DNA of 64,000 bases from a virus: positions 1 through 64,000 of IMG/VR virus record IMGVR_UViG_3300025767_000013; one strand, 5' to 3'. The notes under the pieces were generated by a model. That model worked only from the letters and a program-made list of their open reading frames with translations, was not told the origin of the DNA and made no database searches. The translations under genes and the position numbers were made by a program. How positions within the stretch are numbered: the first letter of the stretch is position 1; each line of letters opens with the position of its first letter. Below, piece by piece: positions 1 through 38,200 of this stretch.

Positions 1-1811
1 ACGAAATCAGATATCAACCAGATAGGTATGTTTTGGTATCGGAATGGAGTAGAAGAAAATTTGAACATTTGGGTATTGATACAACTGTTTGGGAATATCC
101 TATCGATACAATTGAATACGATAAATCTGAATTCAAAAAAGAATTGGGATTTGAAGAAGATTGGAAGCATGTTCTAATGGTTGGATTATTTACGCCCGGT
201 AAAAATCAAAGTGAGATATTCAATATAGCTAGACAATTAGAAAAGTTCAAAATCAAATTTCATTTTGTTGGAAACCAAGCTATGAACTTTGAATCATATT
301 GGAAACCACTAATGGAATTCAAACCCGATAATTGTATTGTTTGGGGTGAAAGACAAGATGTGGATAAGTTTTACAAAGCATCCGATATGTTCTACTTCAG
401 TTCAATATTGGAATTGAATCCACTCTCAATTAAAGAAGCATTGGGGTATGGATTAGAATGCATCTTCCGAAAGTTGGATACATACTTAGATACCTATGAC
501 TCAAATGAATTGGTTACCTATATTGATGATAATTTGGATAAAACCAAACGAATTATATTAGAAAAATTAATGCCGGAATTTAATCAAATTCCTGGTTGGT
601 TTTCTTACCAACAAATTTATGATTCGGTTGTAGAAAGTGGGAATAACAACTCTTTATTTGTTGAGTTGGGTAGTTGGTTTGGTAAATCAACAAACTATAT
701 GGCAACCAAAATAAAGGAATCGGGTAAAACAATAAACTTTACCGCTATTGATACTTGGAAAGGTACTGATGATGAAATCCTACACCAAAACATAGTTGGT
801 TCATATGGTGGTGATATATTCTCTGAGTTTATGGAGAATACTATTTTGAGTAAGAACTATAAAGGATTAAACTTAATCAAAGATACATCAGAAAACGCAT
901 CTCAGCAATTTCCTATGTGTAGTATCGATTATATGATGATTGATGCTGGGCACGATTACGATTCAGTTAAGGGGGATTTGAATAGATGGTATCCAAAGAT
1001 TAAACCTGGTGGAATTATTAGTGGTGATGATTTTGCTACAAATATTTTCGAAGAAGTTACACAAGCCGTTGGTGAATACTTTTATGACCAAGTTACTATG
1101 GTTGGTTATAATTGGTTTAGAAATAAACCAAAGATTCAAATCAAACATTTGTTGACAAGACCGGATGATTTGAGAGAACAAATCAGTATTGAATCAATCA
1201 GACAATTGGCACAATATGGTATCATATACGAACCAATGGTAAACGAACCATACACACAACCAGCACCCGCTGAGTTTTGTAGGAGACCGGAACATCTAAG
1301 TAAAGATAATAAGCCGGGTGAGTTATACACTGGAGCTGGATTGGGTTGGATAACTGGTGGACACTACGGATGTTATATGGCTCACCGAAGAGCATTGGAA
1401 ACAATGGATGACAAATTTGATTACACTCTTATCTTTGAAGCAGATGCATATATTTTCACTGGGTTAAAAGAGTTTGTTGATATCATTCATAAGGCGTGTT
1501 TTATTTCTGAGAGAGATAAAGTTCCTTACATTTCATTTGCGGATAATCCATCTCGTTCTAAGGAAAAAATTGATGAGTTATTTTCCAAAACCGCATCAAA
1601 TCAAGACCTTGCTCACGCATACTTAATTCCCAATAGAGAAAAACAATGGTGGTTGGATAGAATCAATGATTGTGAATGGGATGTGGCTGATTTATGGTAT
1701 AACCATGTGTTCTTCCACCATCATAGACCTCGTTACACAACTAACAAAGTTTACTCAAAGCAAGCGGAAGGATTTTCATTATTGGATTTAACTAACAAAA
1801 CTTGGAAATGA
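1..1811 (+). CDS. Glycosyltransferase / methyltransferase / glycosyltransferase fusion (5' partial)
   Basis: The reading frame is open to the left edge, so the true start lies before the window; the first in-frame start-like codon (TTG at 33) is internal. Numbering from there: residues 1-180 look like the C-terminal half of a GT-B (family 4-like) glycosyltransferase, with a VGLFTPGKNQ strand-loop and an E-x7-E-like tail (LELNPLSIKEALGYG at 126-140). Residues 186-365 are a class I SAM methyltransferase (VELGSWFGKST at 210-220 as motif I; IDAGHDYDSVKGDL at 303-316; KPGGIISGDD at 324-333). Residues 405-592 resemble a GT25-type or related phage glycosyltransferase (GHYGCYMAHRRALE at 443-456, then LIFEADA at 466-472, where many relatives have an acidic E/D-D-D triad). 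It overlaps the next gene by ATGA, so it is the first visible member of a coupled sugar operon. Domain families are recognised by motif only; donor and acceptor are unknown. Confidence 0.75.
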   Translation, partial: EIRYQPDRYVLVSEWSRRKFEHLGIDTTVWEYPIDTIEYDKSEFKKELGFEEDWKHVLMVGLFTPGKNQSEIFNIARQLEKFKIKFHFVGNQAMNFESYWKPLMEFKPDNCIVWGERQDVDKFYKASDMFYFSSILELNPLSIKEALGYGLECIFRKLDTYLDTYDSNELVTYIDDNLDKTKRIILEKLMPEFNQIPGWFSYQQIYDSVVESGNNNSLFVELGSWFGKSTNYMATKIKESGKTINFTAIDTWKGTDDEILHQNIVGSYGGDIFSEFMENTILSKNYKGLNLIKDTSENASQQFPMCSIDYMMIDAGHDYDSVKGDLNRWYPKIKPGGIISGDDFATNIFEEVTQAVGEYFYDQVTMVGYNWFRNKPKIQIKHLLTRPDDLREQISIESIRQLAQYGIIYEPMVNEPYTQPAPAEFCRRPEHLSKDNKPGELYTGAGLGWITGGHYGCYMAHRRALETMDDKFDYTLIFEADAYIFTGLKEFVDIIHKACFISERDKVPYISFADNPSRSKEKIDELFSKTASNQDLAHAYLIPNREKQWWLDRINDCEWDVADLWYNHVFFHHHRPRYTTNKVYSKQAEGFSLLDLTNKTWK

Positions 1812-2950
1812 TTTACGATAAATTAAAAAAGAATCTAAACAACATTGTTGATATTTCCAATAGAATTATCATCAGTTTCATCAATGGACCTAAAGTAGAA
1901 ATTTTAGGTAATAATGATTTAGAATATAGTGTTCAGTTTATAAACAATAAAAACAATGAGATAATTTTTGAAAGTAAAATCAGAAATAATCATTGGACTA
2001 AGTGTAGTATTGAGTATTTTATTGATTGGAGAATCAACATATTTCAAAATGGTGAATTGATAAAAACTTACAACTATAATGCAAATGGTAAACGAGTATT
2101 TATCGCATTGGATTCAAAAGCATTGGGAGATACATTGGCATGGTTTCCATACTTTGATGAATTTAGAAAAAAACATAATTGTGAATTAGTTGTATCAACA
2201 TTTCACAATAATATGTTTAGACATCAATATCCTCATATTGAATTTGTGGAACCTGGTTCAGTTGTTCAAAACTTATACGCTATGTATTGTGTTGGATTAT
2301 TTTATACATCCGATGGTAGTGTAAACATTTACAAAAACCCAAATGATTTCAAAACACAAACAATGCAAAAAATGGGTTCTGATATTTTGGGACTGGAGTA
2401 TAAAGAAATTAAACCACTTCTTCCACAAAAGAATATTAAGAAAGATGATAAGTTAATCACTATTGCAATTCACGGAACCGCACAACCAAAATATTGGAAC
2501 AATCCAAATGGTTGGCAGGATGTGGTAGATTGGTTGAACAACAGAGGTTATACAGTCAAACTACTTTCAAGAGAAGGAAATGATTATATGGGTAACAAAC
2601 ATCCAAATGGAGTTATCCAACATCCAAACGGACCTATTGAAAAGGTAATGGATGAGATGAGAAAATCAAAAGCATTCATTGGTATTGGTAGTGGATTAAG
2701 TTGGTTGAGTTGGGGGTTGGGAACTAAGACGGTATTGATTAGTGGATTCTCCTACGATTGGGCAGAAATGCAAGATTGTGTTAGAATTGGTACACCTGAA
2801 GGAAAGTGTAGTGGATGTTTTAATCGATTAAGATTAGATGCTGGTGATTGGAATTGGTGTCCAGACCACAAAGGAACCGAAAGACAATTTGAATGTACTA
2901 AATCACTTACATCAGAAATGGTAATCAAAGAATTAGAAAAGTTCTTATGA
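1808..2950 (+). CDS. TibC/Aah-type protein O-heptosyltransferase (BAHT family)
   Basis: 380 residues from the ATG at 1808, which overlaps the upstream stop (ATGA). An N-terminal beta-rich domain (about 1-95) precedes a GT-B fold of the heptosyltransferase (GT9) superfamily. LDSKALGDTLAW at 101-112 carries the family's catalytic-type Asp region. IGIGSGLSWLSWG (291-303) and VLISGFS (309-315) match the donor-binding part of the autotransporter heptosyltransferases. Four cysteines at C334, C337 (CSGCF), C351 (NWCP) and C363 (FECT) reproduce the iron-binding finger that marks the TibC/Aah group and is absent from ordinary LPS heptosyltransferases. Known members transfer heptose from ADP-heptose to serines in repeated strand-loop-strand proteins. 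The next two genes encode ADP-heptose synthesis steps, which supports the donor. The acceptor is not shown by the sequence; the phage's own repeat fibres are the best candidates, host surface proteins an alternative. Confidence 0.82.
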   Translation: MIYDKLKKNLNNIVDISNRIIISFINGPKVEILGNNDLEYSVQFINNKNNEIIFESKIRNNHWTKCSIEYFIDWRINIFQNGELIKTYNYNANGKRVFIALDSKALGDTLAWFPYFDEFRKKHNCELVVSTFHNNMFRHQYPHIEFVEPGSVVQNLYAMYCVGLFYTSDGSVNIYKNPNDFKTQTMQKMGSDILGLEYKEIKPLLPQKNIKKDDKLITIAIHGTAQPKYWNNPNGWQDVVDWLNNRGYTVKLLSREGNDYMGNKHPNGVIQHPNGPIEKVMDEMRKSKAFIGIGSGLSWLSWGLGTKTVLISGFSYDWAEMQDCVRIGTPEGKCSGCFNRLRLDAGDWNWCPDHKGTERQFECTKSLTSEMVIKELEKFL

Positions 2951-3336
2951 AGAAAGTTTGGATGAATGGTTGTTTTGATGTTCTACATCATGCTCACTTC
3001 AAAATGATTGAGTTCGCATCTACCTTTGGTGATTTAGTTGTAATTGGAATTGATTCCGATAGACGAGTTAAAGAACTAAAAGGTGAAGATAGACCTTTCC
3101 ATTCTCAAGAAGAACGAAAATACAATTTAGAAAGAATCAAAGGGGTTAGTAGAGTGTTTATATTTGATTCATCTCAATTGTTAGAAGAATTAATAAAAAC
3201 TTACGAACCTGATGTATTTGTTATCGGTTCGGATTATAAGAATAAACCAATCGTTGGTGAACAATATGCTAAATCAATTGTTTACTTTAATCGAATGGTG
3301 GAGTTCAGTACAACTAAAATATTAACAAATGAGTAA
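2947..3336 (+). CDS. hldE2-like: D-glycero-beta-D-manno-heptose 1-phosphate adenylyltransferase (HldE C-domain / RfaE2 type)
   Basis: A 129-residue nucleotidyltransferase of the cytidylyltransferase-like HxGH superfamily, matching the C-terminal domain of bacterial HldE as a free protein. Visible motifs: NGCFDVLHHAH (8-18) at the nucleotide-binding site, where the usual HxGH reads HHAH; GIDSDRRVKELKGEDRP (33-49); EER-x-LERIKGV (55-65); VFVIGSDYKNKPIVGE (95-110); and the closing STTKIL. HldE transfers AMP from ATP to heptose 1-phosphate to make ADP-heptose. The general glycerol-3-phosphate cytidylyltransferase family is the alternative, but the KELKGEDRP and GSDY segments and the neighbouring kinase favour heptose. 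It starts in an ATGA overlap with the heptosyltransferase and ends inside the next gene, so translation is probably coupled. Confidence 0.8.
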   Translation: MKKVWMNGCFDVLHHAHFKMIEFASTFGDLVVIGIDSDRRVKELKGEDRPFHSQEERKYNLERIKGVSRVFIFDSSQLLEELIKTYEPDVFVIGSDYKNKPIVGEQYAKSIVYFNRMVEFSTTKILTNE

Positions 3337-4081
3337 AGTATTGGTTATTGGAGAAGTATGTACAGACATCTTCATTTATGGAGATACCCCACGTCTTTCA
3401 CCCGAAGGACCTGCACCTGTATTTCTTCCGAAGAGAGAAACTTACACTTTGGGAATGGGAATGAATGTGGTATTAAATCTAAAATCATTGGGAATGGATG
3501 CCAACTTCACAAACCAACTTCAACCCATCACAAAGACACGATATATTCACGATTCATCAAACACATTGTTATTAAGACTTGATGAAGAAGAGAATATTGA
3601 TAATGTTGGTGAAAGATTAACAGAGATAGATTTTTGGGAATACTCAATGGTAGTAGTATCAGATTACAACAAAGGATTCCTAACTGAAGAAGATATTGCA
3701 TATATCGGATTCAAACACCCAAATGTAATTTGTGATACAAAGAAAAAGTTGGGTGAATGGTGTAGGGATTTACGATTCATTAAACTCAATCGTTCTGAAT
3801 ATGAAAACAACAAAGATTTTATTCAACAAAACGATTGGATTTTAGAAAAGTTAATAATTACATTAGATAAGGATGGGTGTATGTACAATGGTACAAAATA
3901 TCCAACCGAACAAGTAGAGATAATGGATATATCAGGAGCTGGTGATACATTTGTAGCAGGATTTGTGAAAATGTTCTTAGATACTGAAGATATTCCAAAA
4001 TCAATACAATTCGGAAATCGTTGTTCAGCTCAAGTTGTACAAAAACGAGGTGTAACAACAATAGATTACGAAAATTTATAA
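3329..4081 (+). CDS. hldE1-like: D-beta-D-heptose 7-phosphate kinase (HldE N-domain / RfaE1 type, PfkB family)
   Basis: A 250-residue PfkB/ribokinase-family kinase, shorter than the roughly 310-residue bacterial HldE kinase domain. The N-terminus follows the HldE pattern: VIGEVCTDIFIYGDTPRLSPEGPAPVF (6-32), in which RxSPExPxPV is characteristic of this subfamily. SDYNKGFL (111-118), IKLNRSE (151-157) and the catalytic DISGAGDTF (200-208, with Asp206 as the general base) are intact. A usual GGAANV-like stretch reads GMGMNV (42-47). The enzyme phosphorylates heptose 7-phosphate at O1. It overlaps the adenylyltransferase by 8 bases. The order transferase-adenylyltransferase-kinase is a split and inverted version of the fused bacterial HldE. 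The isomerase (GmhA) and phosphatase (GmhB) of the pathway are not in the window and must come from upstream or from the host. Confidence 0.82.
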   Translation: MSKVLVIGEVCTDIFIYGDTPRLSPEGPAPVFLPKRETYTLGMGMNVVLNLKSLGMDANFTNQLQPITKTRYIHDSSNTLLLRLDEEENIDNVGERLTEIDFWEYSMVVVSDYNKGFLTEEDIAYIGFKHPNVICDTKKKLGEWCRDLRFIKLNRSEYENNKDFIQQNDWILEKLIITLDKDGCMYNGTKYPTEQVEIMDISGAGDTFVAGFVKMFLDTEDIPKSIQFGNRCSAQVVQKRGVTTIDYENL

Positions 4082-4506: not shown

Positions 4507-7500
4507 ATGAACGAACTATCTCAGTTTTTAGTAGAAAGTATATTAGGGGAAGCGGACAGTGTAGACAACCTCGTTGTAGTTTACGCTGGCCGCTTTCAAC
4601 CTTTTCATAAGGGTCATTACGCAACTTATTCGCACTTAGTAAAGAAGTTCGGAAAAAATAATGTTTATATCGGAACATCTAATAAAACCGATAATCAAAA
4701 ATCTCCATTCAATTTTAAGGAAAAGAAAGAAATAATGACAACGATGTTTGGTGTTCCATCAAACAAAATCGTTGAAGTTAAAAATCCATATCAACCTACT
4801 GAAGTTATGAGTAAGTTTGATAAGGATACTACTGCGTTCATTACCGTAGTTGGTAAGAAAGATGCAAGTAGATTGGGTGGTAAATACTTTGAACCATATA
4901 AAGATGGTAAAGAGTTAGAAGGATATAGAGATAGAGGGTATGTTTACATTGCACCAGAACAACCAAATGGTGTAAGTGGTACCGAAGTTCGAATGGGATT
5001 GAGACGAGGTTCTGACGAGGATAAGAAAGAGTTTTTTACCAAAAGAGCATATGGTAAGTTCAATCCTAAAATATTCAAATTTATTGCTGGTAAATTAGCA
5101 CAACTTCCAGAGATTACATCTGAAACCATTTGGATTCCAAAACACATAGTTGAAAGTTGGTTAATCGGTAATGTTGAACTAATCAAAGAAGCATCATCTA
5201 TTATTGGTAAAACCGAAGTGGATGATGGACCTAATTTCCTTTTCCCATCATATGCATCGTTTGAAAAGATTTCACAAAGACGAGCTGAGAAAATTGGAAT
5301 GACTGTTCTATCGCAAATTATGAGTGATGAACTTACTGATATTGACCCACACCCAATTTATCCAAAAGGACCTGTAAAAGCAGTAACTCCATTCCCTGCA
5401 GGTGTGATTGGTAAGGTAACCGCAACCAACCAAAAAGATTACTATGGTTCAGTTGCATATAACAAATGGTTTAAGCATGTTAGTAGAGTTGCTAGTTTAG
5501 TTGGATACTCTTTAGTAGATTCAATTGATTTGGATACTGATAAAATTGAAGCAGAAAAAACAAAAAAGATTACTGGTGTAAAATTACCTGTTATTAAGGA
5601 GGATATCACTATACCTGTAAACATTGGTGATACTATCTTAATGGGTAAATTCAAAAACAAAAAAGTAGTTGTTAAATCTATTGGTAAAGATGAGTATGGA
5701 ATGCCAACTATCAATGGTAAGAAAGTAGCAACTTTCCGAATGATTAAAGAAGGTAACGAAATCGAATTTAATTATTTGAATGAATCTGATATTGTTAAGT
5801 TAAATAACACATTAGGAATTGAAAGGGGTGAACTACCTCAAATACCAAAAGATTCAATCGAAGAATATTTGGGATATTTGGAATCGAATGGAATTCAATT
5901 CGAAATCCAATCTCAGCCGGTAGCATCTTTGAATTCAACGCAAACCGAAATCAATTTTGATAAGGTTAGAGATATGATGATTGATGATGATGTAAATAAC
6001 ACACCAATCATTGTATCTAAAGATGATTATATCTTAGATGGACATCATAGAGCATTAGCAGCATTTAATTCTGATAAAGAATCAGAAATACCTGTAATTA
6101 AAATTGATTTACCAATCGATGAGTTGATTGATGTATCAAATGATTTTAATGGTTCATATAACGAAGATTTAGATGAACAAACTCTAAATGAATTCAATGG
6201 TGTTAGATTTGATGTAATTGGATATGATAAGAATGGTAAACAAGTTGATATGTATCTTCCAAGAGCAAGATTCGGGTTTATGAAAAACATCGTACATGCT
6301 TCAGCTGATAGATTATTCAAAAGTGGTATCTCAAAAGGTAATGGTATTAACTACATTGAAATTTACTATGATAAACATCATTTAGGAACTATTAGATTAC
6401 CACAAAAATTCACTAAAGGTAAAGATTGGGATAAATTACCAATCAACGAAATCCCAATGGCGGATTTGGTAAAGATTGATTCATTCGCAGATAAACAACT
6501 AAACCCAGTAGATGTAGTTCTAACTGACAAACATTTCTTCGATAGATTAAATGACCCTCGTAATGGTAAAGAAATCTCAAACGCAGAGTTGATTGGATTC
6601 TTTAAGAGATTGGGTAAGAATAAAAAGAAATTTGTTGAATTCTTAAACCAATATGGTCAAATCGTAGCAAAGGATAATAGAACGAATATCAACATTCCAT
6701 TTATGAAGCAGGCGAACAAAGTAATCGCTAAAACCATAATGAGAAAATCTGATTTCAAAACATCTTCACCTGAATATGAATTCGAAGCTAAAAAGAATGA
6801 TGAGTTTGAATACAACGAACCATACGCATTGGGTGGTGGAATCTCTGAAGCAAACGCAGTAAGTGGTGGTAAAGTTCACAAATACATTACTGGTAAAAAT
6901 CTTACACTCAAAGGTAAGAAGTATTCAGATATTGAATTTGAAGTATTGGGTATTGATAACAAATCTCAGTTAGTTAAACTTAAAGTTCTATCTCCAAAGA
7001 ATTTATTCGGTGAGGAAATCAATGTTCCATTCAAAACAATTAGAAGAGGACCATTTATTAAAACCAACACAAATATTAGTGAAGGTTTACTAACTGAAGG
7101 TGGGGCATACGGACATATGAATCATCCATTTGATACTGAAATCAATTTAACTTTCGGACAATTAAAAGATATTGTAAATAAAGCATTAGAAGGTAACTTA
7201 GAACTAACGAGAGAAAAAACCGATGGACAAGCATTGGCAATCTCTTGGGTAAATGGTAGATTGGTTGCTGCTAGAAATAAAGGACACTTAAAGAACAAAG
7301 GAGCTGGTGCATTGGATATCAATGGGGTAGCAATGAAGTTCGCTGGTAGAGGTGAGTTAGAGAAAGCTTACAACTTCGCAATGAAAGACCTTTCAAAAGC
7401 AATCTCCAAACTTTCGGAAAAACAAAGAGAGAAAATATTCAAAGGTGGGGCGTGTTTTATGAATTTGGAAGTAATCTATCCAACTTCTGTTAATGTAATT

Positions 7501-8298
7501 CCTTACGGACAAGCACTCTTAGTATTCCACGGAACAATGGAGTATAATGAGGATGGTATTGCAATTGGTGAGAATCAAGAAGCAGCTAAAATATTGGCTG
7601 GTATGATTAAACAAATCAACGCAGATGTTCAATCCGCTTACACAATCCAAGGCCCACCTGTAACTAAATTACCACAAAGTAAAAACCTATCCTCATTAAA
7701 AGGAAAGTATAATTCACAAATCTCAAAACTTCAATCTCAATTTAAGTTGAAGGATAGTGATGGAATCGCAGATTACCATCAAGCTTGGTGGACTGATTTT
7801 GTAACTAAGAAATCACCATCAACTTTAGATAACAAAACCTTAATGGGATTGGTTAAGAGATGGGCATTCTACGATAAATCATTTAGATTGGATAGTAAGA
7901 ATATTTCAGACCCAAAAGTATTAGATTGGGCTCAAGGTATCGATAAAAATGACCACGCTAAAATAGCTAAAGATAACATCAGACCATTTGAAGATATTTT
8001 CTTAGGTGTAGGTTCAGATGTACTTTCATTTATGAGTTCAGTACTTACCGCAAATCCTAACTCAGCAGTTAGGGATATGAAGAAACGATTAGACCAAACT
8101 ATCGCTGATGTTAAGAAAGGTGGAGACCCAAAGAAAGTTGCAAAACTTAAATTGGAGTTGGAAAGATTGAACGCAATCGGTGGTAAAGATAAGATTGTTC
8201 CAAACGAAGGAATCGTATTTGTGTATGGTGGAAAAACTTTCAAATTGACCGGAACCTTCGCACCATTGAACCAAATCTTAGGATTATTTTACGAATAG
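4507..8298 (+). CDS. Multidomain internal virion protein candidate: NMN-adenylyltransferase-like, ParB-like and ligase-like domains
   Basis: 1263 residues. Residues 21-200 are an adenylyltransferase of the NadM/NadR type (AGRFQPFHKGH at 27-37; SGTEVR at 157-162, the ISSTxxR-like motif). Residues 480-545 resemble a ParB/sulfiredoxin-type domain (ILDGHHRALAAF at 509-520). Residues 670-730 hold a conserved-looking segment of unknown function (DKHFFDRLNDPRNGK). Residues 865-1263 resemble an ATP-dependent polynucleotide ligase/nucleotidyltransferase: EKTDG with Lys904 as likely AMP acceptor (KxDG), NLEVIYP (986-992), and NEGIVFV plus KLTG near the C-terminus. Candidate prohead-protease sites, (L/I)-x-E before A or G, separate the parts: after E15, E228, E781, E859 and E864, with a weaker LNE|F at 562. 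This suggests a polyprotein cut into separate proteins inside the head. The domain assignments come from motifs only. Confidence 0.72.
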   Translation: MNELSQFLVESILGEADSVDNLVVVYAGRFQPFHKGHYATYSHLVKKFGKNNVYIGTSNKTDNQKSPFNFKEKKEIMTTMFGVPSNKIVEVKNPYQPTEVMSKFDKDTTAFITVVGKKDASRLGGKYFEPYKDGKELEGYRDRGYVYIAPEQPNGVSGTEVRMGLRRGSDEDKKEFFTKRAYGKFNPKIFKFIAGKLAQLPEITSETIWIPKHIVESWLIGNVELIKEASSIIGKTEVDDGPNFLFPSYASFEKISQRRAEKIGMTVLSQIMSDELTDIDPHPIYPKGPVKAVTPFPAGVIGKVTATNQKDYYGSVAYNKWFKHVSRVASLVGYSLVDSIDLDTDKIEAEKTKKITGVKLPVIKEDITIPVNIGDTILMGKFKNKKVVVKSIGKDEYGMPTINGKKVATFRMIKEGNEIEFNYLNESDIVKLNNTLGIERGELPQIPKDSIEEYLGYLESNGIQFEIQSQPVASLNSTQTEINFDKVRDMMIDDDVNNTPIIVSKDDYILDGHHRALAAFNSDKESEIPVIKIDLPIDELIDVSNDFNGSYNEDLDEQTLNEFNGVRFDVIGYDKNGKQVDMYLPRARFGFMKNIVHASADRLFKSGISKGNGINYIEIYYDKHHLGTIRLPQKFTKGKDWDKLPINEIPMADLVKIDSFADKQLNPVDVVLTDKHFFDRLNDPRNGKEISNAELIGFFKRLGKNKKKFVEFLNQYGQIVAKDNRTNINIPFMKQANKVIAKTIMRKSDFKTSSPEYEFEAKKNDEFEYNEPYALGGGISEANAVSGGKVHKYITGKNLTLKGKKYSDIEFEVLGIDNKSQLVKLKVLSPKNLFGEEINVPFKTIRRGPFIKTNTNISEGLLTEGGAYGHMNHPFDTEINLTFGQLKDIVNKALEGNLELTREKTDGQALAISWVNGRLVAARNKGHLKNKGAGALDINGVAMKFAGRGELEKAYNFAMKDLSKAISKLSEKQREKIFKGGACFMNLEVIYPTSVNVIPYGQALLVFHGTMEYNEDGIAIGENQEAAKILAGMIKQINADVQSAYTIQGPPVTKLPQSKNLSSLKGKYNSQISKLQSQFKLKDSDGIADYHQAWWTDFVTKKSPSTLDNKTLMGLVKRWAFYDKSFRLDSKNISDPKVLDWAQGIDKNDHAKIAKDNIRPFEDIFLGVGSDVLSFMSSVLTANPNSAVRDMKKRLDQTIADVKKGGDPKKVAKLKLELERLNAIGGKDKIVPNEGIVFVYGGKTFKLTGTFAPLNQILGLFYE

Positions 8299-25758: not shown

Positions 25759-26231
25759 TGGCAAGAATAAAACCAAATATTGATTTAGGTACTATTACTA
25801 AAAGACGAGATAGAGAATCTTTTAGAAATTTTGTATTGGAGGTAATTGATGATACTTTTATTTATGAGTTCACCCCAACCTCAATATCATTAGATGGTGA
25901 GTTGTTTACCATTCTATTGGGACCTGTTGATAATAGCACACCAGCCGATTCCGATTATGCGGACTTTGGTGATATAAAGGGGTATAGATTTATTTACGAA
26001 GATTTGCAAGTTTCTGCGATAGAAGATTTTGTTGATGTATATTTATATGGAGTTAAGCAAACATCTGATAGATACGAAGTTCAAGTATTTAAGGAATCAA
26101 TTAGAATTAATTCTAATTTTAGTGATGGTGATGAAATACGATTTGTATTTAATCAATCCATAACTAGAGTTCCTGGTGATGTTGTTAGAACTGATTTTGA
26201 GATAAAAGGTAAAATTGCAGAAATATTATAA
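25758..26231 (+). CDS. Appendage-adaptor candidate, function unknown
   Basis: 157 residues, beta-rich (FVLEVIDDTFIYEFTPTSISLDGELFTILLG; DFVDVYLYGVKQTSDRYEV; RINSNFSDGDEIRFVF). The start and stop overlap both neighbours by one base (TAATG). A pattern of paired strands with a G-x-x-Q-T turn is common in virion connector proteins. The similar ending of the gp15-like protein (beta strands then DEVDIVGKF) hints at shared domain history. Its direct coupling to the giant 4800-residue gene suggests that it helps attach that protein. Confidence 0.58.
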   Translation: MARIKPNIDLGTITKRRDRESFRNFVLEVIDDTFIYEFTPTSISLDGELFTILLGPVDNSTPADSDYADFGDIKGYRFIYEDLQVSAIEDFVDVYLYGVKQTSDRYEVQVFKESIRINSNFSDGDEIRFVFNQSITRVPGDVVRTDFEIKGKIAEIL

Positions 26232-29200
26232 TGGCTAGATTAATTCCACAAAAGCAGATTGAAGAAATTAATATTTTTAAGGATAGCATATCCGTTGCTA
26301 ATTCTGTCTTTATTTCTGGTTCTCTTTATGTATCTCAAAGTGTTAACATTGGTAATAGCTTATTGGATAAGCAAGAGATTACCGGTTCAGTTGAAATCAC
26401 TGGTTCATTAAGTGTTGATGGCAATCTTACCTTCAAAAACGCTAATAACCGATTAGATGCAACCGCATCCTTTTCTGATGTATCATTAGATACTCAGTTA
26501 TTTGCCGGTATTAGACCTGAGGATTTTGTAGCATCTGAAGCAACCATTTATGTATCCTCTACAAGAGGTAGTGATGATAATGATGGTCGTTCACCTGCAT
26601 TCCCATTAAGAACAATTAAGAAAGCAGCTCAGTTAGCAACACCTGGAGATGATGGTAGATATGGATTACCAACTGGTTCCTTATTTACTGGATATAGAAT
26701 TGATGTTGATACTGGTACTTACATCGAAGATAATCCAATCGAACTTCCAAGAAACACAACTGTTTGGGGAAGTGGATTGCGTGTAACTAAGATTGTTGCT
26801 AAAAACGAAAACGAGGATTTATTTTGGGTAAACTCTGGTTGTTATCTTGCGGAGATGACATTTGCTGGATTGAGAGTATATCCATCGGTTGATAATTCTC
26901 AGAAAGGATTCGCTATCGCATTTGCGCCAAACGCATTTATTACAACATCTCCCTACATTCAGAACTGTTCGATGATTTCGAATCAGGAAAACTCATTCTT
27001 AGAAGCATACGAAGAGATTCCTGCTGGTGGTGGTGGTTTGAATGTGGATGGTAATAAGATTCACCCTGATTCTCCATTGGCATCAATGGTATTAGATGCA
27101 TATACTCAGATTGCACCAAATGGTGTAGGTTGTCAAGTTGTTGGTAGAGGATTCATTCAGTTGGTATCTTTCTTCACCAACTTCTCCGCATACTCAGTAA
27201 AAGTATTGGATGGTGGACAGGCTGTATTACTTAACTCCAACACCTCATTTGGTGATTATGGTATGTATGCTAGTGGTTCTCGTTTCATTACTGGTAGTGG
27301 TGGTAACACCGATGCATTCTTAAATGTACAGGATAACTATTCAATTATTGTTAATACAATTGAAAAAGGATTATCAGCAATTCCAGCATTAGTTCCAAAC
27401 GCAGCTAATGGTATTAGAGTAACTGACCCAAATATAATTGAACAATATTTCGTATCCGAAGATTCATCTGCAGATGTGGCTGAAGCGGTTAAATCCGATT
27501 TCAGATTAGTAAGTTCAATTGTTGAAAATGGAAATTCTAATGTTCCAACTCTTATTGCTAAGAGTAGTACATCTGGATACTCACCTACATCAGTTTACAA
27601 TATCTCAGGCCAAACCCAATACACTTCATCGGTTAGTGCATCTGCGGAAGATGTGGCATTGGTTGATACAAACTTTGATATCTTATTGGATATTATTGAA
27701 AGAGGAAACGCAGCAACCGCATCTTATGTTGAGATTTCAAATGTATCTCATTCGATTCAAATAAGTGATATTGAACAATATAAAGGATTGGGTTCATCTG
27801 CTACTACAATAGAGAAAGTTAGTAGTGGATTTAATACAATTATGGAAATTATATCAACTGGTATTACAACGGTTGATATTGTGAGTAATACATCGGCTAG
27901 TTATAAAGTAACCGATACAACAATTTACGAAACTGATATCAGTTCATCGCAATCTACAATTGATTATGTGAGTTCATCTCTTTCAATTGTTTATGATATT
28001 TTAGCAAATGGTACCGCATCGGCACCTACAATAATTCTAAGTAGTTCTATTGAGAATCCAACAATTGAGATTCAGAATGCATACGAATTATTGATAAACA
28101 ATATTCCATTTATTCAAGAGGAAACCATAGTTTACCTATCTTCTTCTTGGAGTGAACATCCATACAATCAAGAGACTTGTAAGAGAGATATTGGATACAT
28201 TATAAGTGGTGCGGCACATGACCTTCTTTATGGTGGTAATGAGGAATCGGTAAGAAGTGGTTTATTCTACTACCTATACCCATCCAACGCAACTACATCA
28301 GAATTAGACCCAACTTTAACAGGTATCAAATACGCAAGTGGGTTAGCTCAGAATATATTAGCTGGTAAAATTTTCTCCGATACAACGGTTGAAAATGAAA
28401 ATGGATATGATGTTATCTTCCAAAACAAAGATTTTGTAATTGAAGAAACCATATTATATATTTCATCTTCTTGGAGTGGATTTGATTATAATGAAGCTAA
28501 GTGTAGACGAGATACTGGTTATATCTTAGACGCTGTTGCAACGGATTTAAGATATGATGGTAATGAGAGAAGTGTAACCGCTGGTGAGTTCTATTACAAA
28601 TATCCATCCCAAGCAACATCTACTCAGTTAAATCAAACAATTGATGCGATTAACTACGCTAAGAGATTAACTGAAAAATTATTAAATAACGATACTTTTG
28701 GACAACCATCCGCATCGGTAATTGGGGCTGTTGATTTGATGAGAGAAAACCGCTCATTGATTCAAGACGAAACTATTACATTTATCAACACACAATATCC
28801 AAACTTTGATTATAATCAAACCAAATGTAGAAGAGATGTTGGATATATCATTGATAACATTGCAACCGATTTATTATATGGTGGTAATGAAAGAACTGAA
28901 ATAGCTGGTTTATATTATTTCTTATATCCATCTATCGCTAACACTACTCAATTAACCGAAACTTTATTAGCTATTGAGTATGTTAATGGTTTAGTTGATG
29001 AGGTAATCCAATCCAATGTATTACCTACACCACAAGTTGTATTGAATGTTGATGGTAACATTAAAGTAACCACATATAATTCAGTAACATCATCAATTTC
29101 GGCTACCGATACTGAGGTTACTTTAGTATCTCAATCATTCAATATTGTTGAAGATATAATTCGTTATGGAACCGATTATATCACATCAACTATTGCTGGT

Positions 29201-32200
29201 AATTCTAATGATTATATTTGGACAACATCTACTCCACTTAATGTTAGTGGTAGAACTCAAATTACATCATCTGAAGTTGATTCTGAAAACTTACAAATAA
29301 TTCAAAATAACTTTGGGGTTGTAACTGATATTATTGCTGGTGGGGTTGGTGCTACACCTACATTGGTTGAGAATGTTTCTTCTTCAATAAAAGTAACATC
29401 AACAACTCAATTCACAAATGGAAGTTCGGTAGCAACATCTGCTGAAGCAGCGTTGGTTAGTGCATCAATTGCAATCGTAACTGATATTGTTCAAAACGGA
29501 ACGGCATCATTACCTGATTTGGTTCAAAATACATCGGCATCAATCAAAGTAAGTGGTGAAACACAAACCACTTCAGCAATATCCGCATCTATAACTGAAG
29601 CAAACAAAGTAAGTTCTTCGTTTGAAATCGTAACCGATATTGTTGAAAATGGAGTTAGTGTAATTCCTACTATTGTATCAAACACAAATGAGAATATTAA
29701 ATTCTTTAACGATAGTGTTCAATACATTTCATCATCTTATAGTGGTTCATCGGAAGATGTAGCATTCATTTCATCTTCTATTTCTATTGTAACCGATATC
29801 ATCACAAATGGTACTGGTTCTTTACCAACCATTGTTGATTACACCCAATCATTGGATTCCGAAAATGCTATCGCAGCATACGAAATCCTTAAAAACAATA
29901 TTTCATTCATTCAGGATGAAACAATAGCTTACCTTTCATCGTCTTGGTCAACCGCATCTTATGATGAGAGTAAGTGTAGAAGAGATGTAGGGTTGATTAT
30001 TAGTGGAGCAGCGGAAGATTTATTATGGGGAGCTAATTCAGCATCCGTAATGAATGGATACTATTATTATCTATTCCCATCACAAGCACAAGGTGCACAA
30101 TTGAATCAAACATTAGATGGTATATTCTACGCATCGAAGTTGGCTCAGAAGTTGGTTCAGAACATTGAGTTCGCAACCGCATCAGAAGAAAGAAGAGCAA
30201 CTTGGGATTTGATTACAAACAACACCGAATTTATTAAAGAAGAAACTATCGCTTACTTATCTTCATCTTGGTCAAACTTTGACTACAATGAGGTAACTTG
30301 TAAGAGAGATGTAGGATACATTTTAGATGCAGTTAAAACTGATGTTTATTATGGTGGTAATGAAAGAACCGCTAAAGCTGGTGAGTTCTATTACTTATAT
30401 CCTTCACAAGCAACTATCGGAAACGATGGTGATACTGGTGGACAATTAAACCAAACATTGGATGGTATCCGATATGCTGGTAGAATTGCAAAAAACATTG
30501 TTCAGAGTATTGAACTTTCTTCACCATCTCAAGCAGTATTAGATGCTAAGGAATTATTGTTTGAAAACAAAACATTTATCCAAAATGAGGTAATTGCATT
30601 TATCTCATCTTCTTGGAGTGAGTTCTCATATAACCAAACAACTTGTAAGAGAGATGTTGGTTACATCTTAGATGCCGCAATTACCGATATGGTATATGGT
30701 GGTAACGAAAGAGGTAGAATCGCAGCAGAATACTATTATCGTTATCCTTCATCGGCAATTGTAGGTGGTGTTCCATCTTCAACACAACAAAAAGACCCAA
30801 CTGTTGATGGTATCAATTACACAAACGCATTGGCTCAAAAAATTGTATTGGGTAGTGTATTTGTAGATGCGGATTCAACAAAACTTTCAATTAGAAATTC
30901 AATTGTTGAAAACAAAGCATATGTTCAACAAAATGTAATTGATTATATTAACGATACATACCCAACACTAAACTACAACGATAGTAAGTGTTACAGAGAT
31001 ATCGGATTTATCATCGATGCAGTTGTAACCGATTTGGTATATGGTGGAAATCAAAGAAGTATCAAAGCTGGTACATTCTACTACCTATTCCCATCTGAGG
31101 CAACATATTCACAATTAACCGAAACTATCAATGGTATCAACTTTGGTAGAGATTTGGTTAAGTTGGTTGTTAAGGGAGCTAAATCAATTGAAGATTCATT
31201 TGATGTAGTTGTTAAAATTATTGAGAGTGGTAGTTCAGTTGTAACCGAACAAACTATTGGAACTGATTCAAACGGAGCACCAATCTCGACTGTTGGTATT
31301 CCTAAAAATTCATATGGTGATAATTTAGTAACAACTGTTGTTGGAACTACTATCCCTGCTGAAATTGAATTGGTTAAAAATACTGAAGCCGGAATTAAGT
31401 TAGGAAACGATGTTCAAATTACATCATCTTTATCAGCTGGAACCGATGAGATAAATAAAGTATCATCTTCTTTCAGTATTGTAACTGATATCGTAAAATA
31501 TGGAATCACTCCAACATTAGAAGTTAGTGGTTCATCTGAATTTGTAACTTACTATGAGGTTGTAACATTAGAAGAGGGTAATTACTTATTTAATAAAAAC
31601 CAATTATCTAAATTTGATAATGCATTTACTGAATCATTTGATGATGGTATAGTTGACCCAGAAATTACATTAAAGCGAGGTGAACTATATACATTCTCTG
31701 TAAATTCACTTAACATTGTAAACGCTGATATAAGTGTATTAAAGCCATTCTATATAAAAACAAAAAGAACAGCTGGTACTAACGATTTATATAACGATGG
31801 TATAACTGGAAACGGAACTTCATTTGGTACTGTTACCTTTATTGTTCCTTTTGATGCACCTGATACATTATATTATGTAAATAGTAATAATGTTTCCGCT
31901 AGTGGTATCATCAATATTGTAGATGAATTACCATTATCCGATACTCAACGATATGTAACTATCCCATCTTTGGGTGAGGTTGAAGTTGTTACTAATAATG
32001 TTGATAATATTAAGATAAACAACATCGACCAATACACATCGGAATATACAGCATCCGCTGTACAATCGGTGGCTATTAGTTCTTCATTCGCAACAACTGT
32101 TGATATATTATTTAATGGTGTAGATAACTTACCAACTCAAATCAAAAATGTTGAAGGGTTGGTTAAGAAAAATAATATAGCACAATATACATCTTCAGTT

Positions 32201-35200
32201 GATACAACCGAAGGTTTGAGAAACACAATCAGTTCTTCATTTGATATCGTATTGGATATTGTTGAAAATGGTACTGGTTCAATTCCAACTATTGTTGATA
32301 ACACAACCGATTTAATTAAGGTAACATCTGAAGCTCAATATGTAAGTTCAACTTCTGCTGGTAGTGATGAAATTCAATCTGTAAGTTCATCATTCGCTAT
32401 CGTATTGGACATCCTTAAAAATGGTGTAGGTAGTTTACCAACTGAAATTGAAAATGTAAGTGGTAGTATTAAGAAAACTACATTCGAACAATACATTTCA
32501 GCATCATCGGCAACTCAAACTGAGATTGCTAAGGTTAGTTCTTCGGTAGCCATTGTAACGGACATTATTTCTAATGGAGTTGATTCTCTACCTATCGTAG
32601 TAGATAATACATCAGAACTCATTAAAGTAACTACAACCGAACAATACACTGGTTCTTTGAGTGGTTCATTGGAAGATGTGGCAGCTATTTCATCATCTAT
32701 CTCAATTGTAACTGATGTTATCGCAAACGGATTATTTGGATTACCTACTGTAACGGCTTATACCGCATCAGTTTCTACTCCATCTACTTTGGCAGCGTAT
32801 GAAATCATAAAAGAAAATATCGATTTCATTCAAAACGAAACTATCGCTTACTTGTCATCTTCTTGGTCTACTGCTTCATACGATGAAGCTAAGTGTAGAA
32901 GAGATGTTGGTTTAATTATTAGTGGAGCAGCTGAGGATTTATTGTTCAACTCAATATCCGCATCGGTTGTAAATGGATACTATTACTATTTGTTCCCATC
33001 ACAAGCGCAGGGTGCACAATTGAACCAAACTTTGGATGGTGTATTCTACGCAAGTAAATTAGCACAACAATTGGTTCAGAACAACATCTTTGTAACCGCA
33101 TCATCGGAAAGATTGTTGACAGCTGAATTGATTACAAATAATACTGAATTCATCCAAGAAGAAACAATCGCTTACCTATCTTCATCTTGGTCATCATTTG
33201 ATTATAACGAAACAACTTGTAAGAGAGATGTGGGTTATATCTTAGATGCGGTTAAGACTGATATCGTATATGGTGGTAATGAGAGAAGTGTTAAAGCTGG
33301 TGAATTCTATTACTTATACCCATCCGCAGCAACTGGTTCACAATTGAACCAAACATTAGATGGTATCAACTATGCTGGTAAATTAGCACAAAGAGTAATT
33401 CAGAATATTGAGTTTGTAACCGCATCTGAATTTGTAAGTGCATCTTATGACTTAATCGTAAACAACATCGATTTCGTTAAAGAAGAAACTATCGCTTACT
33501 TATCATCTTCTTGGAGTGGTTTCTCATACAATGAAACAACTTGTAAGAGAGATGTTGGATATATCTTAGATGCTGTTGCAACTGACCTTTATTATGGTGG
33601 AAATGAGAGAAGTATCACCGCTGGTGAATTCTACTACCTATATCCTTCAAACGCAACTGGTTCTGAGTTAATCCAAACTTTAGATGGTATCAACTACGCA
33701 AGAAGATTGGCAAACGAAATCATTCAAAACAATCAGTTCGCATTAGCACCATTCAGTAGAACAAACGCTGTTGATGTATTGATTGAAAACAAACTATTCA
33801 TTCAAGAGGAAGTAATTTCTTATGTATCTTCTTCTTGGAGTGGTGTGTTCTACAATGAGGATAAGTGTAAGAGAGATGTTGGATATATTTTAGATGCTGT
33901 TGCAACCGATACTTTGTATGGTGGTAACGAAAGAAGTTCTAAAGCTGGTGAGTTCTACTACCTATATCCATCAAGAGCAACCAATGCTGGTGTTCCATCT
34001 GAGCAAAATCAATTAGATTCAACTTTAGATGGTATCACATACGCTAAGTTGGTTTCTGATAAATTATTACAAAACGAAATCTTTGTAACCGCATCAACTC
34101 AGGTTGTTGAGGTGGTTAAATTGATTACTGAAAACAAACCATTTATTCAAGCGGAAGTTATTTCTTATATTTCTTCTTCTTGGAGTAATTTTGAATATAA
34201 CGAAGCAAGTTGTTCGCGTGATGTGGGTTACATCTTAGATGCAGTAGCAACTGACTTCTACTATGGTGGAAATGAAAGAAGTATCACCGCTGGTGAGTTC
34301 TATTACTTATTCCCATCAGCAGCTACGGTAAGTGGTAGTGAATCACCAAGCGTAAGTGCACAATTGTACCCAACGGTAGATGGTGTAACCTACGCACAAA
34401 GATTGACAAACAAATTGGTTAACAACATTAATTTGGTAACCGCATCTTTGGAAAGACAAACTACATACAACTTATTGTTGGATAACAAAGAATTACTACA
34501 AAACGAAGTAATCTCATTTATGAGTTCTTCTTGGAGTGGATTTGAGTATATCGAAGCTAAGTGTAGAAGAGATGTTGGATACATCGTAGATGCTGTGGCA
34601 ACGGATGTTCTTTATGGTGGTAATGAAAGAAGTATCACCGCTGGTGAGTTCTACTATCTATACCCTTCAGAAGCAACCACTGTTCAATCTGACCAAACTA
34701 TCACTGGTATCAACCACGCTGCTGGATTGGCTGATAAGATTGTTCAAAACACATTGTTGGTAAATCCTAATAGTGATTTACTTGCGAAGTATAACTTGAT
34801 TTTGGACAACAAAGAATTAGTTCAGGACAATGTTATCAGATTTGTGGATATGAAATATCCTTACTTCACTTACAATAGAGTTAAGTGTAGAAGAGATGTT
34901 GGATTTATCATTGATGCAGTAGCAACTGATTTACTATGGGGTGGTAACGAAAGAAGTATCATCGCCGGTGATTACTATTATAGATACCCATCTGAAGCAA
35001 CAACCATCCAATTGGGTGAAACAACTGAAGCTATCAGATACGCTAAGGGTATTGTTAAACAAATCTTATTAAACACCTTATTGGAAGTTCCATCGGTTAA
35101 ATCAAATACTGAAAACAATATTAGATTTACCGATACAACTCAATATACCGGTTCACTTGCAATTAGTGGAAGTAACCTAACTGATATCAGTTCATCATTT

Positions 35201-38200
35201 GAATTAGTTACGGGGATAATCACATCTGGTATTTCTTCATACACACCATCAACCGCAACATACAATCCTGCAAATGGTGATTTCACAATGACAATTGTAA
35301 GACATGGATTGGATGTTGGCGATAGTATCTATCTAAAACCTGAATCATTCACATTTACTTGTGAAATGGATGGTAATAGAACTGAACACAAATTACCAGC
35401 AGCTGGACAACCTGCATACGATAGTAGATTAACCATTAAATCAGTAACATCAAACACTGTAACTGTGAATGTTGGTAAATCGGGTCCAAATGTAGAGTTC
35501 AATCCAACAAACGCATCATATGACCCATCTACTGGTGATTTTGTAGTAACTGTAGCAAGTCATAGTTTAAGTGTTGGTGAAGGTGTAGTAATGGCAGCTG
35601 AATCATTCGCATTTACTTGTGATATGGATAATGACCAATCGGTTAAATCTTATCCAAGAGTAGGAATCGACCCATTTGCGGTTCGTTCAATTCCACTTAC
35701 TTCGGTAACTGATACTACAATGACATTTAATGTTGGAGCATCTGGTCCAAACAAATACTTCACACCTGTATCTGCTTCTTACAACGCATTGACTGGTGAT
35801 ATGATTCTGACTGTTAGTGAATCGTTTGGATTAGGAGTTGGTAGAAGTGTGGTATTAGAAAATGAATCATTCGCATTCACTTGTGATATGGATGGTAACA
35901 CAACAACCCATTCTTACCCAAGAAGTGGTTCAGACCCATATGCTGAAAAATCAATTCTAATTACTTCAGTTGGTACAACATCACATACACCAACCGATGC
36001 ACCTTACAACCCAACAACTGGTGTGGTAACATTAACAATCGCAAATCACGGATTCTCAAATGGTGATTATGTGAAAGTTGATGATGGTGCATTAACTTAT
36101 ACTTGTGTATCTGATAACAACCAAACCGAACATTCATACCCAAGAGCTGGATACGATTATCCATCTGGTAGATGGTTGGAAATTTCTAATGTAACTACAA
36201 ATACATTCGATATCAATGTAGGTTCATCATCTTACTTAGGTGAACATACTTTTGTAACCGCATCTCTAAATGGTATTAAGAGACAGGATGGTACATTTAC
36301 AATTAATGTGGGAGATGCTGGAAGTGCTTCTGGTTCAATCCATACATTCGTATCTGCATCGGCAAATGCGGTTAAGCACGAACCTCAATCGGTTCACACT
36401 TTTGTATCTGCATCAAATGGGGCATTGAAACACTTACCACAATCTACTCACACATTTGTGAGAACTCAGAGAGATTCGGTAACTACATTGCCAATCGAAG
36501 TTAAGAACATCGAAAACTTAATAAAAGTAACTGATGCAACTCAAACTACTTCTTCTTTAAGTGGTAGTGGAGTAGAGGTTGGTATTGTTTCAGCTAGTAT
36601 TGATATGATTAACGATATTATCAGATTAGGTTCTGATAACATTCCATTCGCTATCGCTAAAAACTTCCAAACTTCTGAGTTAGATACTCCTCAAAACTTA
36701 ACAACTGGTAGATATGTAACCGCAAGTGGTGATTACGAAGTTGGAAATGAGTTAGCAATTGTAACCTCATCATTCGCACAAATCAATGATGTTATTGAGA
36801 ATGGATTAACTTCATTACCAACATTGGTATTGAATACAAACAACAACATTAAAGTAACTAATGTAACTCAATACACCTCATCACTAAGTGGTTCTTCAAC
36901 CGAAACTTCAAAGGTAAGTGCTAGTGTTGATATTATTGAAACAATTGTTCAAAATGGAGTAGGTTCAATTCCAACAATCGTTCAAAACAACACAAATACT
37001 TCAAACTTAATCAAAGTTGGTAATGTAGAACAATACATCTCAGCTAGTGGAGCAGATAAGATTCAATCTAAGATTGTATCATCTTCATTCGGAATTGTGA
37101 TTGATATATTGGTAAATGGAACTGGTTCCCTACCGACTATTGTTGAATACACAAATCAGGTGGATGCACCTAAGACTGTATTGGCTTACAACTTATTAAA
37201 AGAAAATATCGAATTCATTCAGAACGAAACTATATTGTTTATGAGTTCTTCTTGGAGTGGATTTGAATACAACGAAGCAAGTTGTTCGCGTGATGTAGGT
37301 TTAATTGTAAGTGGAGTAGCTGAGGATTTAATCTATAACGCTAATTCAGCATCTGTTGTAAACGGATACTATTATTACCTATTCCCATCTCAGGCAACTG
37401 GTTCACAATTAGACCAGACTGTAACTGCTATCAGATACGCAAGTAACTTAGCACAAAATATTGTTAGAAATAGAACATATGTAACCGCATCGATTGAAGT
37501 ATCTGCTTCATACGATTTGTTGATTCAAAACAAAGAATTCATTGTATCTGAATCAATCTCATTTGTATCTTCTTCTTGGAGTGATTTCTACTACAACCAA
37601 AATACTTGTGGTAGAGATGTTAGATATATCGTAGATGCAGTAGCAACCGACCTTATTTATGGTGGAAACGAAAGAAGTGTAACCGCTGGTAAGTATTACT
37701 ACGATTACCCATCATCAGCAATCGTAGGTGGCGTTCCATCTTCAACTCAACAAAAAGACCCAACTGTAACCGCAATCAACTATGTTAAAGGATTGGTTAC
37801 TGAAATTGTGGGTGGAGCTGTATTCCAAACCGCTTCAAACGAAGTTGAATACACATACGATACAATCAGAACAAATAGAGGATTTATCCAAAATGAAGTA
37901 ATTGCATTCGTAAACGCTAAGTATCCAAACTTATTCTACAACGAAGCTAGTTGTAGTAGAGATACTGGATTCATCGTTGACGCTGTTGCAACTGATTTAA
38001 GATGGGGTGGTAACCAAAGAAGTAGAGAAGCGGGTAGATTCTACTATCTATTCCCTTCTAAAGCAACTAATGTTCAATTGGGTGAAACTACCGATGCAGT
38101 AACTTACGCATCTGATTTGGTAACTGAAATTGTATTGAAGAATACTTTATCAATTCCATCTGCTAGTTTGAATACTGATAATAACATCAAAGTTACATCA

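Follow-up and report, generated by a model that had tools for sequence, protein, structure and literature searches.

A freshwater phage encodes a glycosyltransferase (GT) that is best read as belonging to a separate branch of the TibC/Aah family of protein O-heptosyltransferases. The gene lies in the window analysed here, bases 1–64,000 of the 70,657-base virus record IMGVR_UViG_3300025767_000013, and is followed by two overlapping genes, whose products are a nucleotidyltransferase (AT) and a kinase (KIN), both of HldE type. We propose, at a probability of roughly 0.6, that this phage branch O-heptosylates Ser/Thr residues in the collagen-like Gly-Thr-Ser (GTS) and Gly-Ser-Ser (GSS) triplets of fibre proteins, and that AT and KIN boost the supply of the sugar donor. 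Support comes from homology, fold, conserved catalytic and finger residues, the operon and a genomic association with the repeats. The features concerned are the following.

1808–2950, + strand: GT, a TibC/Aah-family (GT9-like, GT-B) glycosyltransferase of 380 aa (TIGR04414, TibC fold)
2947–3336, + strand: AT, an HldE-type nucleotidyltransferase of 129 aa, heptose-1-phosphate adenylyltransferase-like (TIGR02199 best, phrog_7878)
3329–4081, + strand: KIN, an HldA/HldE-type PfkB kinase of 250 aa with an intact GAGD motif (TIGR02198 best, phrog_8133)
41561–52768, + strand: candidate acceptor, a 3735-aa protein with (Gly-Thr-Ser/Gly-Ser-Ser)n tracts at aa 2281–3580

A preliminary description of the window had noted three overlapping genes at 1808–4081, a four-cysteine finger in the first and an intact GAGD in the kinase. 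All three genes are open reading frames (ORFs) at these positions, with overlaps of 4 nt between GT and AT and 8 nt between AT and KIN, and the GAGD motif is present.

The glycosyltransferase belongs to the TibC/Aah family

GT scores 268.9 bits (E = 6e-80) against the NCBIfam model TIGR04414 (hepto_Aah_TibC), for which the curated cut-off is 200 bits, and only about E = 6e-4 against the heptosyltransferase I model. For comparison, bacterial members of the phage-type branch score 303–309 bits with TIGR04414, and one TibC-type member scores 655. Up to E = 1, the only match in PDB sequence searches is TibC (4rap/4rb4, E = 1e-49, ~31% identity). When the AlphaFold2 model of GT (predicted local distance difference test, pLDDT, 93) was searched with Foldseek, TibC (4rap) aligned with a template modelling (TM) score of 0.85, compared with 0.40–0.54 for GT9 enzymes and <0.5 for WaaC/WaaF. 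Thus, profile and fold both uphold the earlier grouping with TibC/Aah, and on these two grounds we reject a plain lipopolysaccharide (LPS) heptosyltransferase identity. One database entry from an uncultured phage is already auto-named 'Glycosyltransferase Aah/TibC', so the GT homologue itself is not unannotated.

Residues were mapped by aligning GT on TibC, with residue roles taken from the TibC study (PMC4358343), and conservation was read over 51 distinct viral GT sequences. The motifs CSGCF, NWCP and FECT of the proposed cysteine finger align with TibC Cys339, 342, 358 and 370, and these four iron-finger cysteines are invariant in all 51 sequences. Given the fold match to TibC, they are expected to cluster in three dimensions. 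The catalytic base D110 and the donor contacts T226, K230 and W305 are also kept and invariant. At residue 300, the determinant of D,D/L,D stereoselectivity, GT has Gly where TibC has Pro and Aah has Ser. In TibC the hydrophobic thumb tip, F265-V266, serves the dodecamer; at this tip of the beta-hairpin GT has a nearly invariant Tyr-Met pair (Y262, M263), and the hairpin is ~3 residues shorter in the alignment.

Other phages carry GT fused into multidomain proteins of 0.7–1.5 thousand residues (L069–L082, L083, L228–L245), and the copy in Microcystis phage Mel-JY01, a cultured phage that also encodes a GTS protein, is annotated as an FkbM methyltransferase.

A collagen-like protein is the candidate acceptor

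The preliminary description left the acceptor unnamed and took the autotransporter repeats modified by TibC/Aah as its background. This background did not carry over to the phage. TIGR04415 strand-loop-strand repeats were found in none of 16 phage records (the window record and 15 related ones) and in none of 12 cellular genomes with GT homologues, with an E. coli control being positive, and an acceptor of the autotransporter strand-loop-strand type is rejected on this basis. The evidence points to collagen-like Gly-Thr-Ser repeats.

The 3735-aa protein of the window matches the Collagen family PF01391 at 360.9 bits (cut-off 27.2) and contains 190 GTS and 118 GSS triplets. The triplets are nearly proline-free, and among 347 Gly-X-Y triplets Y is Ser in 277. 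That the protein is a virion fibre is suggested by its large size, its repeats and its position amid structural genes. Instead of a collagen-like fibre, the GTS tract may form a polyglycine-II-like bundle. Between two GTS tracts, at aa ~2490–2600, is a cupredoxin-like stretch (FDVSGVSSSHPFAL...YQCVNHSSMIG), which is unusual for a fibre protein.

The glycosyltransferase co-occurs with Gly-Thr-Ser repeats

Bacterial GT homologues are flanked by neighbours built of Gly-Thr-Ser/Gly-Ser-Ser triplets. For counting, the GTS-type pattern was defined as DNA encoding four consecutive Gly-[Ser/Thr]-[Ser/Thr] triplets, (G[S/T][S/T])4. It occurs in 20 of 27 GT-carrying records, with none in a reverse-read control, and the background, taken from a single bacterial class, is 18 of 369 genomes. 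Among cellular genomes the pattern is present in 8/12 GT carriers versus 16/367 (Fisher test, P = 3e-8; here and below the sequences are treated as independent, and P values are therefore overstated).

The reverse selection gave a similar association. When viral contigs of at least 30 kb were picked solely for the GTS pattern, GT was found in 18 of 39, and in 7 of 10 when the contigs were at least 100 kb. As controls, random contigs (0/30) and contigs with proline-type collagen (1/36, that one also with GTS tracts) were used. With the GTS-bearing proline-collagen contig left out, the pooled comparison is 18/39 versus 0/65 (Fisher test, P = 9e-10). Collagen in general is rejected as the partner of GT, the single proline-type contig with GT being itself GTS-bearing. 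In Flavobacterium phage immuto, the phage search detected no GT, and GTS tracts are missing from all of its 160 kb.

On chromosomes, GT lies 38–830 bp from a GTS-type repeat in Methylobacter, in a Polaromonas metagenome-assembled genome (MAG), in an Arenicellales MAG and in another gammaproteobacterial MAG. The family to which Methylobacter belongs is represented by 201 genomes, 13 of which encode GT. Seven of the eight intact phage-type copies (I/V/M at position 286) adjoin exported, signal-peptide-like (GTS)n proteins, whereas none of the five TibC-type copies (Arg286) does so and three of these adjoin TIGR04415 repeats (7/8 versus 0/5, Fisher test, P = 0.005). A strict filter gave 6/7 (GTS)n neighbours; the neighbour in L492, which has shorter triplet runs, was read by eye. 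We regard the separate chromosomal lineages and the contrast between sister clades in the Methylobacter family as the strongest evidence for the association.

Two further observations concern the carriers themselves. The TibC-type GTs of Methylobacter-family bacteria (L499–L504), three of them beside AIDA-like strand-loop-strand proteins, occur outside known pathogens. A 735-kb phage with GT (L085, LR756501.1) has an extreme repeat load, with 1245 reverse-strand matches to the GTS-type pattern.

The nucleotidyltransferase and kinase would cover part of donor synthesis

Both AT and KIN fall below the NCBIfam equivalog cut-offs and are therefore assigned by relative ranking. AT scores 98.1 bits with TIGR02199 (heptose-1-phosphate adenylyltransferase, cut-off 181.5) versus 64.7 with glycerol-3-phosphate cytidylyltransferase, and in PDB sequence searches cytidylyltransferases rank first. 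The best family for KIN is TIGR02198 (heptose-7-phosphate kinase), at 122.6 bits with a cut-off of 345, and its top PDB match is HldA (4e84), both by sequence and by fold. The HldE-type partners of the preliminary description thus hold as the best-scoring families and are weakened by the curated cut-offs and by the HHAH motif of AT, which stands in place of the HxGH found in most relatives. Some heptose nucleotidyltransferases produce CDP- and UDP-heptose, and the Arg of the STTR5 motif marks the use of CTP/UTP among these enzymes. This Arg is absent from the phage AT family, so ADP is favoured.

Together, AT and KIN would cover just two of the four steps of the donor pathway. No match to GmhA (TIGR00441) was found in the 16 phage records, several of which are fragments, and GmhB was not searched for. 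Synthesis of ADP-heptose in vitro has been reported for heptose enzymes of viral origin, and viruses are reported to lack the phosphatase.

Gene order and genomic context

One protein query retrieved 166 related viral stretches, 80 of which were kept for synteny. In most of the 80 the order is a long ORF, a small ORF, a GT4/methyltransferase protein, GT, optionally AT and KIN, a small ORF, a nucleotidyltransferase-like protein of 0.8–1.5 thousand residues, and terminase. Dozens of viral contigs carry the GT-AT-KIN block in the same order, and the arrangement is therefore not due to chance. AT-KIN is present in 37 syntenic viral loci and absent from 29 (~44%). Where present, the pair directly follows GT, being gained or lost at one place, and its presence changes at least four times on the GT tree (fully supported branches alone force only one change). 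We conclude that the donor genes are an optional supplement to GT and not a fixed part of the system. Of the dedicated heptosylation system first envisaged, the GT family assignment is borne out; donor synthesis is incomplete in the records searched and, because ~44% of the syntenic GT loci lack AT-KIN, it is not constant.

Strict GTS matches number 111, 105, 105, 27, 27 and 13 in syntenic records with AT-KIN, with 0 in one 53-kb fragment, and 0, 2, 0 and 2 in those without. We treat the greater richness of AT-KIN records only as a lead, since relatedness and the length of the fragments are confounders.

The record is that of a T4-like myovirus (terminase, prohead protease and major head protein). 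The terminases (TerL) nearest to its own are from Microcystis phage Mel-JY01, at 56%, and from Flavobacterium phage immuto, at 55% identity. One further gene is probably part of the same glycosylation cluster as GT and is syntenic in nearly all relatives:

33–1811, + strand: multidomain protein with a GT4 domain, a Methyltransf_24 domain and a weak GT25 match (Pfam), open at the left edge of the record

The ATG start of GT at 1808 overlaps the stop of this gene as ATGA, with an alternative TTG start at 1802. Downstream of the cassette, positions 4507–8298 encode a syntenic 1263-aa protein that has an N-terminal NMN-adenylyltransferase-like domain and precedes terminase; phage immuto has a NadR-annotated protein at a similar place. 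Adjoining the fibre gene, 26231–40633 is an ORF of 4800 aa with no Pfam match above cut-off and no NCBIfam match. An open frame of 841 aa that reaches past the window edge, at 63001–65526 of the full record, repeats the motif DTGYYMDPNS and is probably another fibre gene.

Proposed mechanism and alternatives

In the mechanism that we propose, the acceptor would be Ser/Thr hydroxyls in GTS/GSS triplets of the giant virion fibre protein (41561–52768) and the donor most likely a nucleoside diphosphate (NDP)-D-glycero-D-manno-heptose, probably ADP-heptose. KIN and AT would boost two steps of host HldE, from heptose-7-phosphate to heptose-1,7-bisphosphate and from heptose-1-phosphate to ADP-heptose, with sedoheptulose-7-phosphate isomerase and the bisphosphate phosphatase supplied by the host. 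Relatives without AT-KIN would draw on host ADP-heptose. O-heptoses would be added by GT to the fibre polypeptide in the cytoplasm, ahead of virion assembly, and may stiffen, hydrate or mask the nearly proline-free triplet fibre. Acceptor, donor, site and physiological effect are all inferred here. Strand-loop-strand repeats also show Ser before Gly, so a Ser-Gly acceptor would be a natural common denominator. Hydroxyproline stabilises animal collagen, and sugars could give polar, proline-poor triplets comparable stability. A passage of PMC3368898 cites glycosylated threonine as a collagen stabiliser.

Several observations weigh against this proposal. In TibC, Arg286 contacts adenine and its Ala mutant is inactive (PMC4358343); the window GT has Val at this position, as do 48 of the 51 viral sequences, and this makes the nucleotide specificity for the donor uncertain. 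In bacteria, the position is I/V/L in the nearest homologues and I/V/M in the methanotroph branch members. Arg286 is retained in a few remoter GTS-linked homologues (L095, L096 and L085), so the change is not strictly tied to the acceptor. The sub-cut-off scores of AT and KIN and the HHAH motif count in the same direction. In this phage ~39 kb separate GT from the repeat gene, no GT was detected in 21 of the 39 GTS-bearing contigs (many being fragments), and the co-occurrence counts carry no correction for phylogeny. The target of GT could also be a different protein, or GT could add to a sugar set by the upstream GT4/GT25-like protein.

The replacement of the adenine-contacting Arg by V/I/L/M across the branch, the scores of AT and KIN under the HldE cut-offs and the existence of enzymes that make CDP- and UDP-heptose would all fit a GT with the right acceptor and another donor, either CDP-/UDP-heptose or a different NDP-sugar, with AT and KIN adapted to match. 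We consider this unlikely, though worth serious attention, given that the phage AT family lacks the Arg of STTR5, that the best matches are still heptose-1-phosphate adenylyltransferase and HldA, and that the remaining sugar-contacting residues of GT are kept. The 39-kb gap and the repeat-bearing contigs without GT would fit a GT that targets a different protein, of the virion or of the host, and that co-occurs with GTS repeats only through a common gene pool of large phages. Unrelated chromosomes with GT 38–830 bp from GTS-type repeats, and the switch of acceptor from one sister GT clade to the other within a single bacterial family, make such an explanation improbable.

Many phages carry LPS-altering genes, and GT might alter the host surface (LPS or capsule) as an ordinary GT9 heptosyltransferase would, for example to block superinfection. 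The weak matches of GT to GT9 and LPS heptosyltransferase models and the GT4 and methyltransferase domains of the upstream protein are consistent with this role, which is nevertheless quite improbable in view of the gap between TIGR04414 and heptosyltransferase I (E = 6e-80 versus ~6e-4), the TM scores (TibC 0.85 versus GT9 enzymes 0.40–0.54) and the invariance of the iron-finger cysteines among aligned viral copies. Moreover, a surface-altering role does not predict an association between GT and a protein repeat.

Relation to known systems and significance

GT is like TibC/Aah (4rap, 4rb4) in its fold, with an N-terminal beta-barrel and a GT-B core, in its iron finger, in D110/T226/K230/W305 and in size. 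It differs in having Val286, Gly300 and a thumb ~3 residues shorter, in its identity of only ~31%, and in being linked to GTS collagen-like repeats, with no strand-loop-strand acceptor in the phage records. AT and KIN share two predicted activities, phrog_7878/phrog_8133 and split genes with HldE/HldA-HldC and with the cyanophage pairs of P-SSM2, S-CAM1 and S-SM2. The phage proteins differ from HldE in scoring below its model cut-offs, and from the cyanophage pairs in lying directly downstream of a TibC-type GT, for which the phage search gave no match in those cyanophages.

Collagen-like triplet repeats also carry glycans in Bacillus BclA and in mimivirus collagen, where the glycans have been suggested to make the fibre more stable or more hydrated (PMC8968730). 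Those systems use other sugars and enzymes, whereas the phage combines near-proline-free Gly-Thr-Ser triplets with a TibC-type enzyme. Mycobacteriophage virion proteins (capsid and tail tube) are glycosylated, according to work cited in a passage of PMC12619734. Enzymes encoded by the phages are responsible; glycosyltransferases and acceptors differ there, and no heptose route is involved.

The preliminary description knew of no phage system of this kind. The literature search found nothing linking collagen-like proteins with a heptosyltransferase and nothing on phage TibC. For the donor genes there are precedents: AT-KIN pairs are known in cyanophages, assays of viral heptose enzymes have been published, and phage genes for ADP-heptose are no novelty. 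What is new is the likely acceptor. Viral NDP-heptose enzymes are active in vitro and their role in viruses has been called unsolved (PMC11573728). In the locus described here such enzymes stand next to a homologue of protein heptosyltransferases, and a specific acceptor is suggested.

A broader reading, which we hold tentatively and at somewhat less than even odds, is that GT represents a widespread and hitherto undescribed class of collagen-like (Gly-Thr/Ser-Ser)n O-heptosyltransferases acting on the fibres of phages and on proteins that bacteria export. Heptosylation at high density would then take the place of proline/hydroxyproline in forming a stable triplet fibre, the donor nucleotide would possibly be altered, and the presence of heptose enzymes in phages would be explained. 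If heptosylation of the fibre triplets is true, protein heptosylation would extend from autotransporter adhesins to collagen-like fibres, and it would offer both a means by which triplet repeats with hardly any proline are stabilised and a new sugar coat for phage virions.

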